From contig NZ_OBDO01000003.1 of the NCBI RefSeq assembly GCF_900215145.1, positions 124,001-188,000 of the forward strand: 64,000 nucleotides of DNA. Reading direction: 5' to 3'. Below are positions 34,629 through 48,283 of this stretch, in pieces; positions within the stretch are counted from its first letter, which is position 1, and the number at the start of each line of letters is the position of its first letter. Source of the stretch: Geodermatophilus sabuli. GTDB taxonomy: Bacteria; Actinomycetota; Actinomycetes; Mycobacteriales; Geodermatophilaceae. Made by a program: the position numbers and the translations under genes. The notes below the pieces were generated by a model, which saw nothing but the letters and a program-made list of their open reading frames with translations, had not been told where the DNA came from and searched no databases.

Positions 34629-35729
34629 TCAGCCGCGGTGGCGGTCCCCCTCCGTTCCGTGGCCGTCGGCCCTGGTCGCGCGCCGCTCGGCGTCTGCCAG
34701 CGCCTCCGGCCCGTGCGACGGGATCTCGCCCGCGATCTCGGGCTCGGTCGGGGACTCCGAGGTGAACTGGCCGCGGGTCTTGATGAGGCTGGCCACCGTC
34801 GCGACGATCAACACGCCGACGATGATCGTCAGGGACAGCCAGATCGGGATCTCCGGCACCGACTCGATGTGCTCACCGCCGTTGATGAACGGCAGCTCGT
34901 TGGTGTGCAGCGCCTCCATGATCAACTTCACGCCGATGAAGGCCAGGATCACCGCCAGGCCCAGCGACAGGTACACCAGCCGCTTGAGCAGCCCGCCCAG
35001 CAGGAAGTACAGCTGCCGCAGCCCCATGAGGGCGAAGACGTTGGCCGTGAAGACGATGAAGGGCTCCTTGGTCAGCCCGAAGATCGCCGGGATGCTGTCC
35101 AGGGCGAACAGCAGGTCGGTGGTCCCCAGCGCCAGGAACACCACGATCATCGGCGTCCAGTACTTCTTGCCGTCCTGGGTGACGCGGATCTTGCTGCCGC
35201 GGAAGTCCTGGGTGATGGGCAGCACCCGGCGCATCCGCCGGATGAAGGCGTTCTCCTCGTAGTCCTCGTCCTCGCCGCGGTGCCGGACGAGGTTGATCGC
35301 CGTGTACACCAGGAAGGCACCGAAGATGTAGAAGACCCAGGTGAACCGCTCGATGACCGCGGCGCCGAGCAGGATGAAGACGCCCCGCAGGACCAGCGCG
35401 ATGATGATGCCGACCATCAGGGCTTCCTGCTGCAGGTTCCGCGGCACCTGGAAGCGAGCCATGATGATCACGAAGACGAACAGGTTGTCGACCGAGAGGC
35501 TGTACTCGGTCAGCCAGCCCGCGTAGAACTCGGTCGCGAACTGGGCGTTCGTCACCGCCAGCAGCACCACGCCGAAGATCAGCGCCAGGCCGACGTAGAA
35601 GCTCACCCACAGGCTGGCCTCCTTCATGGAGGGCTCGTGCGGGCGGCGGGCGACGATGGCGAGATCGGCGAGCAGCAGGACCGTGAGCCCCACGAACGTC
35701 GCGACCTCGAACCAGACGGGGAGATCCAC
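34629..35729 (-). CDS. TerC family integral membrane protein (second copy)
   Basis: A 366-aa TerC/Alx-type membrane protein with about nine hydrophobic helices. TerC proteins act in manganese export or metal protection, including metalation of secreted proteins in some bacteria. The conserved core LLFALDSIPAIFGLTKEP and VFTANVFALMGLRQLYFLL are present, as is LTEYSLSVDNLFVFVII. It starts at a GTG (35729) as VDLPVWFEVATF. It is a paralogue of the adjacent 35845-36951 gene with the same order of motifs, but no riboswitch is visible in its own short leader. A strong hairpin separates the two. Confidence 0.92.
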   Translation of the reverse strand: MDLPVWFEVATFVGLTVLLLADLAIVARRPHEPSMKEASLWVSFYVGLALIFGVVLLAVTNAQFATEFYAGWLTEYSLSVDNLFVFVIIMARFQVPRNLQQEALMVGIIIALVLRGVFILLGAAVIERFTWVFYIFGAFLVYTAINLVRHRGEDEDYEENAFIRRMRRVLPITQDFRGSKIRVTQDGKKYWTPMIVVFLALGTTDLLFALDSIPAIFGLTKEPFIVFTANVFALMGLRQLYFLLGGLLKRLVYLSLGLAVILAFIGVKLIMEALHTNELPFINGGEHIESVPEIPIWLSLTIIVGVLIVATVASLIKTRGQFTSESPTEPEIAGEIPSHGPEALADAERRATRADGHGTEGDRHRG

Positions 35730-35844: not shown

Positions 35845-36951
35845 TCAGCCCTGCGTGGATCCCACGCCGCGGCCCACCGGGTCCCCGGCGGGCCGGCGGT
35901 CCGACGCCGGCAGTTCGTCGCCGTCGGCCGCGCCGGTGACCTCCGGGCCGGCGGGGGCGGTGGAGCGCTCCACGCCGCGGTTCCCGTCGCGCCGGTTCCT
36001 GGCCAGGCTGGCCACGGTCGTGACGACCAGCGTGAGCAGGATGACCACCAGCGACAGCCAGGTCGGGATCTCCGGGATCGCGGTCACGTGCTCACCCCCG
36101 TTGATGAACGGCAGCTCGTTCTCGTGCAGGGCGTGGATCACCAGCTTGACGCCGATGAACCCGAGGATGACCGCCAGGCCGTAGGACAGGTAGACGAGCT
36201 TGTCGAGCAGGCCGTCGAGGAGGAAGAACAGCTGCCGCAGGCCCAGCAGCGCGAAGGCGTTGGCGGTGAAGACCAGGTAGGTCTCCTGGGTGAGCCCGAA
36301 GATCGCCGGGATCGAGTCGACGGCGAACAGGATGTCGGCGCTGCCGATGGCGACCAGCGCGATGGCCAGCGGGGTGATGTACCGCTTGCCGCCGATCTTC
36401 GTCGTCAACCGGTCCGAGTGGTAGTCGTCGGTGGTCGGCAGCAGCCGGCGGGTGAGGCGGAGGACGCCGTTCTCCTTGAACTCCTCCTCGTGGGTGTGCC
36501 CGCCCTTGGCCTGCAGCCAGGCGGTGTAGATCAGGAACGCACCGAAGACGTAGAAGATCCAGCTGATGTTCTCGATGGCCGCGGCCCCGACGAAGATCAG
36601 CGCCGTGCGCAGGACGAGCGCGAAGGCGATGCCGAACAGCAGCACCTTCTGCTGCAGTTCCCGGGGCACCGCGAAGCTGCTCATGATCAGCACGAAGACG
36701 AAGAGGTTGTCGACCGAGAGGCTCTTCTCGGTGACGTAGCCGGCGAAGTACTCGCCGCCGAACTGCGGACCCGCGAACCACAGGACCAGCAGGCCGAAGA
36801 CGACGGCGATGCCGACGTAGACCGCCGACCAGATGGCCGACTCGCGCAGGGTGGGTGCGTGCGGGGTGCGGACGTGGCCGACGAAGTCGAACACGAGCAT
36901 GCCGACGATCGCGGCGACGGTGACCGCCCACACCCAGAAGGGGACGTCCAT
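35845..36951 (-). CDS. TerC family integral membrane protein under Mn2+ riboswitch
   Basis: A 368-aa TerC paralogue with about nine membrane helices. Its core is ILFAVDSIPAIFGLTQE, then LVFTANAFALLGLRQLFFLLDGL, and EKSLSVDNLFVFVLIMSSF near the N-terminal third. The likely role is Mn2+ export or Mn-dependent membrane homeostasis. The start at ATG 36951 (MDVPFWVWAV) is chosen over ATG 36960 because the Shine-Dalgarno GGAGG at 36962-36966 is 10 bases from 36951 but only 1 base from 36960, and the paralogue begins VDLPVWF. Its leader carries a yybP-ykoY-type aptamer whose switch hairpin covers that Shine-Dalgarno. Confidence 0.93.
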   Translation of the reverse strand: MDVPFWVWAVTVAAIVGMLVFDFVGHVRTPHAPTLRESAIWSAVYVGIAVVFGLLVLWFAGPQFGGEYFAGYVTEKSLSVDNLFVFVLIMSSFAVPRELQQKVLLFGIAFALVLRTALIFVGAAAIENISWIFYVFGAFLIYTAWLQAKGGHTHEEEFKENGVLRLTRRLLPTTDDYHSDRLTTKIGGKRYITPLAIALVAIGSADILFAVDSIPAIFGLTQETYLVFTANAFALLGLRQLFFLLDGLLDKLVYLSYGLAVILGFIGVKLVIHALHENELPFINGGEHVTAIPEIPTWLSLVVILLTLVVTTVASLARNRRDGNRGVERSTAPAGPEVTGAADGDELPASDRRPAGDPVGRGVGSTQG

Positions 36952-36960
36952 GAACTGCAT

Positions 36961-37087
36961 ACCTCCGGTACTGGCGTACGTCAGTGACCGGAGGTCTCTC
37001 CCACCGCCGGCTCGGCCGGCGACCGGCAGGGCCGGAGGTCATGGGACCTCGTGTTGACGACTCTGCCGCGCGGGGATACTCCCCTCC
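36961..37087 (-). promoter_or_regulatory. yybP-ykoY (Mn2+) riboswitch with Shine-Dalgarno-sequestering platform
   Basis: Read on the - strand, the aptamer runs from GGAGG-GGAGTAT (37087-37076), through AGTCGTCAA and a GC-rich arm, to GAGA-CCTCC (ending 36990). GGAGTA and AGA next to the closing GGAGG/CCTCC helix, and the internal GTCGTCA, are hallmarks of yybP-ykoY RNAs. CCTCCGGT (+ strand 36987-36994) can instead pair with ACCGGAGG (+ strand 36962-36969), which contains the terC ribosome site. Mn2+ binding should favour the aptamer helix and free the ribosome site. Confidence 0.88.
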
Positions 37088-37227
37088 ACGTGCGGACCCG
37101 GCGGCGGGCAGGCGTCATCGACCGCAGACACCGTGGATCCACTGGGTGCAACGCCGGGAGACCCGCCGGAGTTCCCCGTTCCGCGAATCCGCTGCGGGCA
37201 GCGCCTCGGCCGGTGGCCCGCCCGGCC

Positions 37228-37270
37228 GGTCTCCCTGCAGGTCCCGCCGTGAGCGGGCGGGGCAGGGCCC
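37228..37270. terminator. Short GC hairpin near the yjbR-like 3' end
   Basis: CTGCAGGTCCCGCCGTGAGC followed by GGGCGGGGCAGGG forms a short CCCGCC/GGCGGG hairpin. It resembles the repeated terminator-like element found after secG, whiA and uvrB. Confidence 0.4.
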
Positions 37271-37273
37271 CCG

Positions 37274-37630
37274 TCAGGCCGGCGCCGGCGGGCGCCGGCT
37301 CCTCGGCAGCGCCGCGACGGCGGCGTCGTAGGAGGCGTCGACCAGCTCGCGGATCTCGTCGTCGGGAACCGGGCCGGTCCAGTCCACCGAGTTCCAGCCG
37401 TACCGGCCCACGTAGGCACTGGTGGTGATCGCGCTGGGATACCGCGCGCGCCACTCGGCGGCCTCCGCGGCGTCCCGGCCGCACTTGACGCTGACCCCGC
37501 CGCTGTCCAGGCCGATGAAGGCGAACGCCTTCCCGCCCGCCTTGGCCACGAGCTCGGCTTCACCCCAGGGGTGTGTCTCCTCGGCCCCCGGCTTGCCCAG
37601 GCAGTGGGCGACCAGCTCCTCGAGTTGCAC
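37274..37630 (-). CDS. MmcQ/YjbR family DNA-binding-fold protein
   Basis: A 118-aa protein of the MmcQ/YjbR family, a small CyaY-like or 'double wing' fold often annotated as DNA-binding with no proven function. It begins VQLEELVAHCLGKPGAEETHPWGEAELVAK and carries FAFIGLDSGGVSVKCGRDAAEAAEWRARYP and SAYVGRYGWNSVDWTGPVPDDEIRELVDASY, the typical C-terminal signature. The GTG at 37630 has AAGGGAG five bases before it and is preferred to an ATG at 37675, which adds 15 unconserved residues. It lies between uvrB and the TerC riboswitch. Confidence 0.85.
   Translation of the reverse strand: MQLEELVAHCLGKPGAEETHPWGEAELVAKAGGKAFAFIGLDSGGVSVKCGRDAAEAAEWRARYPSAITTSAYVGRYGWNSVDWTGPVPDDEIRELVDASYDAAVAALPRSRRPPAPA

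Positions 37631-44903: not shown

Positions 44904-48283
<3,380 letters not shown>

Follow-up and report, generated by a model that had tools for sequence, protein, structure and literature searches.

Solved yybP-ykoY aptamers are built around a four-way junction (PMC6754395), and a review describes their four helices (PMC9495176). TerC proteins, whose genes stand behind such elements, have a role in Mn2+ export and in the metalation of exoenzymes (PMC10550928). RNA-seq studies of Corynebacterium and Streptomyces are reported to have detected yybP-ykoY riboswitches (PMC8164766), and the association of yybP-ykoY with terC in Actinobacteria is already known from C. glutamicum (PMC3890552). Here we analyze the leader of a terC gene in a 64-kb stretch of DNA (the window). 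We consider it probable that this leader is a variant of the yybP-ykoY Mn2+ riboswitch that lacks helix P2, has a three-way junction and turns terC on at translation.

The leader lies on the minus strand upstream of terC, at 37090-36951, and reads 5' to 3' GTGGAGG-GGAGTA-TCCC-CGCG-CGGCAG..GTCGTCAACAC..CGG..CTGCCG-P4 hairpin-GGGA-GAGA-CCTCCGGT-CACTGACGTACGCCAGT-ACCGGAGG-TATGCAGTTC-ATG. As the initial annotation had noted, it carries the hallmarks of the family, GGAGTA (37082-37077), GTCGTCA (37061-37055) and AGAGA running into CCTCC (36994-36990). The 5' strand of P1.1, GGAGG (37083-37087), is assigned a partner at 36990-36994 from the sequence and from the swap test described below. It is followed by the conserved loop L1, GGAGTA (37077-37082), and by the 5' strand of P1.2, TCCC (37073-37076), whose pairing with GGGA (36999-37002) is backed by covariation and pair counts. 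A 4-nt linker, CGCG (37069-37072), stands at the place of helix P2 of the four-way form, as judged from linker lengths in model matches. The P3 arm (37024-37068) contains a lower stem (37068-37063/37029-37024) and a TCG/CGG helix (37060-37058/37034-37032), all placed by pair counts and folding, together with an upper stem (37050-37045/37040-37035) that lies outside the structure used for pair counts. The arm holds the L3 loop TCAACAC (37051-37057). The P4 hairpin (37003-37023) shows changes on both sides in 8 of 8 modelled pairs, and the 3' side of L1, GAGA (36995-36998), is placed by its conservation in 27 leaders. L1, L3 and the AGA beside P1.1 match the solved aptamers (for L3, the L. lactis and X. 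oryzae sequences given in PMC6754395), and A37055 aligns by eye with their Mn2+-sensing adenosine.

The switch strand CCTCCGGT (36987-36994) belongs to two helices. Bases one to five make up the 3' strand of P1.1, and all eight form the anti-Shine-Dalgarno; the strand is exactly complementary to ACCGGAGG (36969-36962), which contains the Shine-Dalgarno GGAGG of terC and was placed by sequence and alignment. Folding predicts a sequestering hairpin at 36962-36994, with 8 bp, a 1-nt bulge, 4 bp and an 8-nt loop. Because aptamer and hairpin both need the strand 36994-36987, the two are mutually exclusive, as originally proposed. Within the window the combined aptamer pattern occurs at a single place, as three nested matches, and none of 100 dinucleotide shuffles contains it. 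Similarly, CCTCCGGT followed at 4 to 30 nt by ACCGGAGG occurs once in the window and in none of 100 such shuffles. A search of 36900-37300 found no intrinsic terminator-like site, which bears out the earlier description of a leader without a terminator, and no sigma-70-like site.

The gene behind the leader encodes a TerC protein of 368 residues (35845-36951, minus strand; PF03741 by Pfam). The initial annotation had argued for a start at 36951 (ATG, 36949-36951) over an upstream ATG only 1 nt from GGAGG (36958-36960), and the relatives agree with it. The codon aligned with 36951 is ATG, TTG or GTG in 27 of 27 leaders of alignment A1, whose leaders were cut from a TerC alignment, so that their ends are aligned by construction while start codons at those ends are not guaranteed. 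In contrast, the upstream codon is unconserved, with an in-frame start at that place in none of the 26 other leaders; one of them (L030) has an ATG there, followed by a stop codon two codons on. A second terC (34629-35729, minus strand; PF03741), 51% identical to the first, lies in tandem and has no leader match of its own, the whole genome containing one match to the leader models R1 and R2, built from 27 and 100 leaders, respectively.

Of 41 genomes searched for the TerC protein, 39 contain it, the window's own among them, and 30 terC loci were analyzed, one best TerC match per genome. The leader is present at 27 of these 30 loci. Within the genus, each of the 24 genomes with a TerC match (own included) has the leader before its best match, one further genome (G021) giving no TerC match, and the leader is present at three of six loci from other families of the order. 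The three loci without it (L025, L026 and L028) show no GGGGAGTAT within 300 nt of the best-match terC; the genome of L025 carries the leader before a different terC (L044). L1 GGAGTA is identical in all 27 leaders, and so is CGTCA of L3, which includes the putative metal-sensing adenosine.

We scanned sampled genomes of the phylum, presumably Actinomycetota. R1 gave matches in 57 of 296 genomes (E<=0.01), at 66 places, from which 65 loci were taken; the place left out (G239:C49) lies at a contig end. One of the 65, L099 (E 0.0022), was dropped as unlike the motif on inspection, its genome being unmatched by R2. A short-pattern scan of named genomes gave at least 80 loci, and among those listed 77 belong to Actinomycetota, judged from names and taxonomy, many of them to Streptomyces, Microbacterium and Cellulomonas; the others are two Chloroflexi MAGs and one Halotalea. 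R1 matches all 80 listed pattern loci. Together with the 64 remaining R1 loci these make 144. R2 gave matches in 98 of 396 genomes (E<=0.001), whereas the Rfam yybP-ykoY model RF00080 at the same E matched 14 of the same genomes, one over its cut-off, a comparison that is uneven since stricter filters drop weak matches and R2 was trained on part of the genomes. The R2 matches were inspected in part.

The motifs hold in this wider set. GGGGAGTA is present in 57 of the 64 R1-found loci, for whose selection the pattern was not required, and in 137 of the 144, of which 80 were selected by a pattern requiring it. The L1 of the yybP-ykoY family, GGGGAGUA, is found in all 27 leaders, that of the window included, and in the 64 R1-found loci it appears in exact form in 57 and in a loose form in every one. 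L3 is of the CGTCA type in 59 of the 64 and TCGACAYAC in two, and two of the other three read GGTCA. The 80 pattern-derived loci had been chosen for their L3 and L1 motifs and are left out of these 64-locus counts.

Covariation backs P1.2, P3 and P4, both in RNAalifold and in pair counts, the latter made in the MAFFT alignment A2. There, 96.7% of cells are paired, whereas slid versions reach 39.9-62.7%; both sides vary in 16 of the 27 pairs, a count reached by none of 500 shuffles. In P1.2, for example, TCCC/GGGA changes to TTCC/GGAA. P1.1 is invariant in A2, but it varies in the swap test and in the phylum-wide sets. In the wide alignment A4 its outer modelled pair is GC in 55, AU in 43 and other in 2 sequences, although the wide-set alignments were fitted to the model.

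If the 3' strand of P1.1 is shared by both helices, the 5' strand of P1.1, the switch strand and the ribosome site are expected to vary in concert, and the three strands do so. CCTCC goes with GGAGG and CCTTC with GAAGG, and longer co-changes are seen, for example, in single loci, CCTCGAACA/TGTTCGAGG in L083, CTTTCGACTGTC/GACAGTCGAAGG in L100 and CCTTCGCG/CGCGAAGG in L092. We quantified this with a swap test, in which a 12-nt switch strand was paired with the ribosome-site stretch (28 nt at most) of its own leader or of others. The 140 TerC leaders, including one duplicate locus that clustering removed, were reduced to 92, 61 or 22 representatives, the last below 50% identity. Starts came from a rule favoring a Shine-Dalgarno for 114 leaders, five of which show none by that rule, and from the TerC alignment for the other 26, whose Shine-Dalgarno score was assigned by hand.

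Own partners paired at -15.0 kcal/mol compared with -11.6 for swapped partners in the 92 set, -14.1 compared with -10.8 in the 61 set and -14.9 compared with -12.0 in the 22 set, and none of 20000 permutations reached the own value in any set, although clustering removes shared descent only in part. P1.1 pairing likewise favors the own partner (0 of 20000 permutations in each set). Taken singly, 73 of the 92 leaders pair better than the mean of their swapped pairings and 19 do not; own pairing is weak in some leaders (L054, L093, L108 and L125). When the switch strand was split into parts of 5 and 7 nt, no permutation of 20000 did as well for either part in the 92 set, and 1 and 10 did in the 61 set; the effect is weak in the 22 set (927 and 1651 of 20000). 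Reversed control strands gave z values of 0.0 (22 set), -2.6 (92 set) and -2.3 (61 set), so composition explains a little of the effect in the two larger sets. The joint change of P1.1, its 3' strand and the ribosome site agrees with a two-way switch.

To see how the two folds compare along the growing transcript, we computed folding energies with and without a forced aptamer; these cover secondary structure only, with docking energy outside the model. For a transcript ending at 36990, the free fold, which retains P1.1, has -53.2 kcal/mol compared with -49.0 for the forced aptamer, a gap of 4.2 kcal/mol. Other folds beat the forced aptamer by 5.4, 6.1 and 4.5 kcal/mol at ends 36984, 36978 and 36970. 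With 36962 transcribed, the sequestering fold is ahead, by 10.5 kcal/mol at 36962, 8.2 at 36951 and 15.7 at 36930, which makes off the default state. The forced aptamer is preferred at no length, which implies that the switch needs the docking energy of Mn2+ or kinetic control.

On this basis, we propose that the aptamer can form as RNA polymerase passes 36990, which would leave it a window of time before the ribosome site emerges. Enough Mn2+ would dock L1 on L3 and hold P1.1; the 3' strand CCTCC would then be unavailable, the ribosome site free and terC translated. Without Mn2+, CCTCC plus GGT would zip with ACCGGAGG once that has been made, and terC would stay untranslated. The TerC protein would then export Mn2+ or hand it to secreted enzymes. 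That the ligand is Mn2+, that it acts in the on-direction and that translation is the controlled step is the most likely reading, given the solved relatives, the E. coli mntP riboswitch (PMC9603457) and the role of TerC (PMC10550928).

The same aptamer might instead act mainly on transcription, through Rho-dependent termination or pausing, with the Shine-Dalgarno hairpin secondary. The L. lactis switch does act on termination (PMC11087558), and L053, L055 and L090 show, by eye, terminator-like hairpins with T runs. However, the window leader contains no terminator-like site, only 4 of 144 leaders have a T5 in the 100 nt downstream, and in 73 of 92 TerC leaders the switch strand prefers the ribosome-site stretch of its own leader over the average of the others. 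We therefore regard control at transcription as unlikely, and control of terC at translation is retained as the preferred reading.

The initial annotation had named the absence of an RF00080 match above threshold as a refutation of its reading, and such a match is indeed absent: the window contains none at the cut-off. The leader does not reach the 45 bits that mark membership of RF00080, which gave no match at E<=10 in 381 nt around the leader and none in the whole genome. The only Rfam match above cut-off in the window is to a different family, a c-di-AMP riboswitch (RF00379) at 45011-45113 on the plus strand, with 41.2 bits (cut-off 38). With permissive filters and E<=5, RF00080 matched none of 20 model-positive loci. 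As RF00080 misses nearly all of the leader set, Rfam was rejected as sole arbiter. The initial reading is otherwise largely upheld.

A likely cause is the missing P2, a three-way junction replacing the four-way junction that the window leader lacks. The gap between P1.2 and P3 is 4 nt in the window, and the corresponding linker measures 2-10 nt in 68 of 70 R1-aligned matches, a count that includes the false match L099 and one locus twice (L030 = L043). The two exceptions, L037 and L031, have linkers of 15 and 12 nt, and both are RF00080-positive. The absence of P2 was not taken as excluding the yybP-ykoY kind, because a three-way yybP-ykoY element has been reported in S. pneumoniae, as described in a review (PMC9495176).

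Of 13 loci searched with RF00080, two gave weak matches lying on the leader, L022 (17.1 bits, E 0.0068 in 301 nt), aligned by shortening P2, and L009 (16.0 bits), aligned with part of the leader only, both below the cut-off of 45. Conversely, R1 recovers two of seven RF00080-positive loci, L037 (23.5 bits, E 0.014) and L031 (22.4 bits, E 0.023). L037 is itself a weak RF00080 match (19.5 bits), in which a P2 hairpin is visible by eye, and it shares GTCGTCAGTACGG with members of the window's genus such as L003, the window reading GTCGTCAACACGA instead. Matches of R2 and RF00080 coincide in G286 and G401, and also in G066 when a weaker RF00080 match is counted. These cross-matches suggest a visible though weak link of the leader to the family, and from its sequence the leader appears to be a P2-less, divergent form of the yybP-ykoY kind that falls outside RF00080 as modelled. 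Two weaker R2 matches (L239 and L240) carry an insertion that is possibly a P2 hairpin, and four-way and three-way junction types may coexist within one family of bacteria.

We also asked which genes follow the leader, using tblastn with few queries and Pfam for a sample, so that the labels below fall short of a full annotation. Among the loci examined, TerC is the most frequent next gene, followed by P-type ATPases and GDT1; exchangers and membrane metalloproteases occur at a few. The 65 R1 loci comprise TerC (43), P-type ATPase (12), HtpX of family M48 (3), GDT1 (2) and five others, namely an M50 peptidase (L084), two contig ends (L039 and L087), an unknown protein (L057) and the false L099. 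At L055 and L053 the ATPase label comes from an ORF well downstream. The 80 listed pattern loci comprise TerC (71), one P-type ATPase and eight others: a Na/Ca exchanger family protein, a Usp protein, an AMP-binding enzyme, three proteins of 277-325 residues, a 79-residue ORF without a match and one contig end. A further 20 R2 loci, mostly second matches within a genome, were labelled by tblastn as GDT1-like (11), P-type ATPase (2), TerC (2), M50 (1) or left unlabelled (4). At most of these loci the leader thus stands before TerC or other cation-handling genes, in keeping with yybP-ykoY elements as leaders of Mn2+/Ca2+ homeostasis genes, and in the window before TerC.

Several of these groups deserve separate mention. 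HtpX follows the leader variant at L090, L101 and L102 and an M50 peptidase at L084 and L223. In B. subtilis, HtpX co-purifies with a TerC protein (PMC10550928, Table 1), and the open-licence literature searched yielded no paper joining a manganese riboswitch and htpX. The proteins at L057, L104, L136 and L148, with 277-325 residues and no Pfam match, have N-termini similar by eye and come from Microbacteriaceae where named; their place behind the leader makes them candidates for a Mn2+ function. The leaders of the GDT1 type (L061, L085, L222, L224, L225, L228, L230-L233 and L236-L238) carry a different, longer L3, TCGACACAC, TCGACATAC or TCGACACGC, nearer to the X. oryzae type than to the 7-nt L3 of TerC leaders. 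P2 seems, by eye, to be absent from them too.

These genes bear on the identity of the ligand, which could be another divalent ion (Ca2+ or Cd2+) or pH acting on the same fold. The genes that follow encode, among others, P-type cation ATPases and, in one case, a Na/Ca exchanger family protein, the S. pneumoniae element binds Ca2+ too (PMC9495176), and pH affects the E. coli mntP element (PMC9603457). Against this, the L3 adenosine and its neighbors are kept, and two B. subtilis TerC proteins have Mn efflux activity (PMC10550928), so that we think a ligand other than Mn2+ distinctly unlikely. It is very improbable that the leader is a conserved hairpin hiding the ribosome site, as a thermometer or protein site and with no aptamer, for although the hairpin belongs to the most stable fold of the whole leader, conservation is higher in the region upstream of it, which covaries in the manner of a junction, and the L1 and L3 motifs precede several unrelated cation genes.

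The P2-less variant is perhaps the common form of the switch in the phylum. We lean towards a broader view, in which the P2-less, three-way-junction Mn2+ riboswitch would be the main form in Actinomycetota and would mostly have escaped counting, since the reference model is built for a four-way junction. The switch would govern a Mn2+ envelope regulon made up of TerC, P-type ATPases, GDT1 and cation exchangers, together with HtpX and M50 as membrane metalloproteases and an unnamed protein family of Microbacteriaceae. If so, Mn2+ control would be added to about a quarter of the sampled phylum genomes (98 of 396, with 14 for RF00080). The compact aptamer would also let the need for P2 in Mn2+ docking be tested, and the leader variant points to unstudied Mn2+ genes, HtpX included. 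We found no description of the P2-less form, its spread or the coupled three-strand change in the open-licence literature searched.

With respect to known systems, the leader has the same L1, GGGGAGUA, as the yybP-ykoY elements of RF00080 (L. lactis, X. oryzae, E. coli alx and mntP, B. subtilis ykoY), and its L3, UCG-UCANNNC/CGG, is the 7-nt form as in L. lactis. It also shares with them P1.1 as the switch helix, its place before TerC and other Mn2+ genes and the on-direction expected of it. Unlike them, it lacks P2 and is hardly recognized by RF00080. After GGGGAGUA, P1.2 of the leader usually begins with U or C, whereas the RF00080 consensus is GC, and some leaders keep the G. The E. coli mntP riboswitch is a four-helix form, unlike the leader. 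In it, Mn2+ turns on translation initiation (PMC9603457), as we propose here. The S. pneumoniae mgtA element is described in a review as having a three-way junction, as here (Martin 2019, via PMC9495176), and it controls a P-type ATPase, a class of gene also found behind the leader variant; the likeness is drawn from the review's description. Finally, terC of C. glutamicum (cg2157) is, as here, an actinobacterial terC behind a yybP-ykoY leader; RF00080 recognizes that leader with 49.1 bits, and its transcription start has been observed (PMC3890552).
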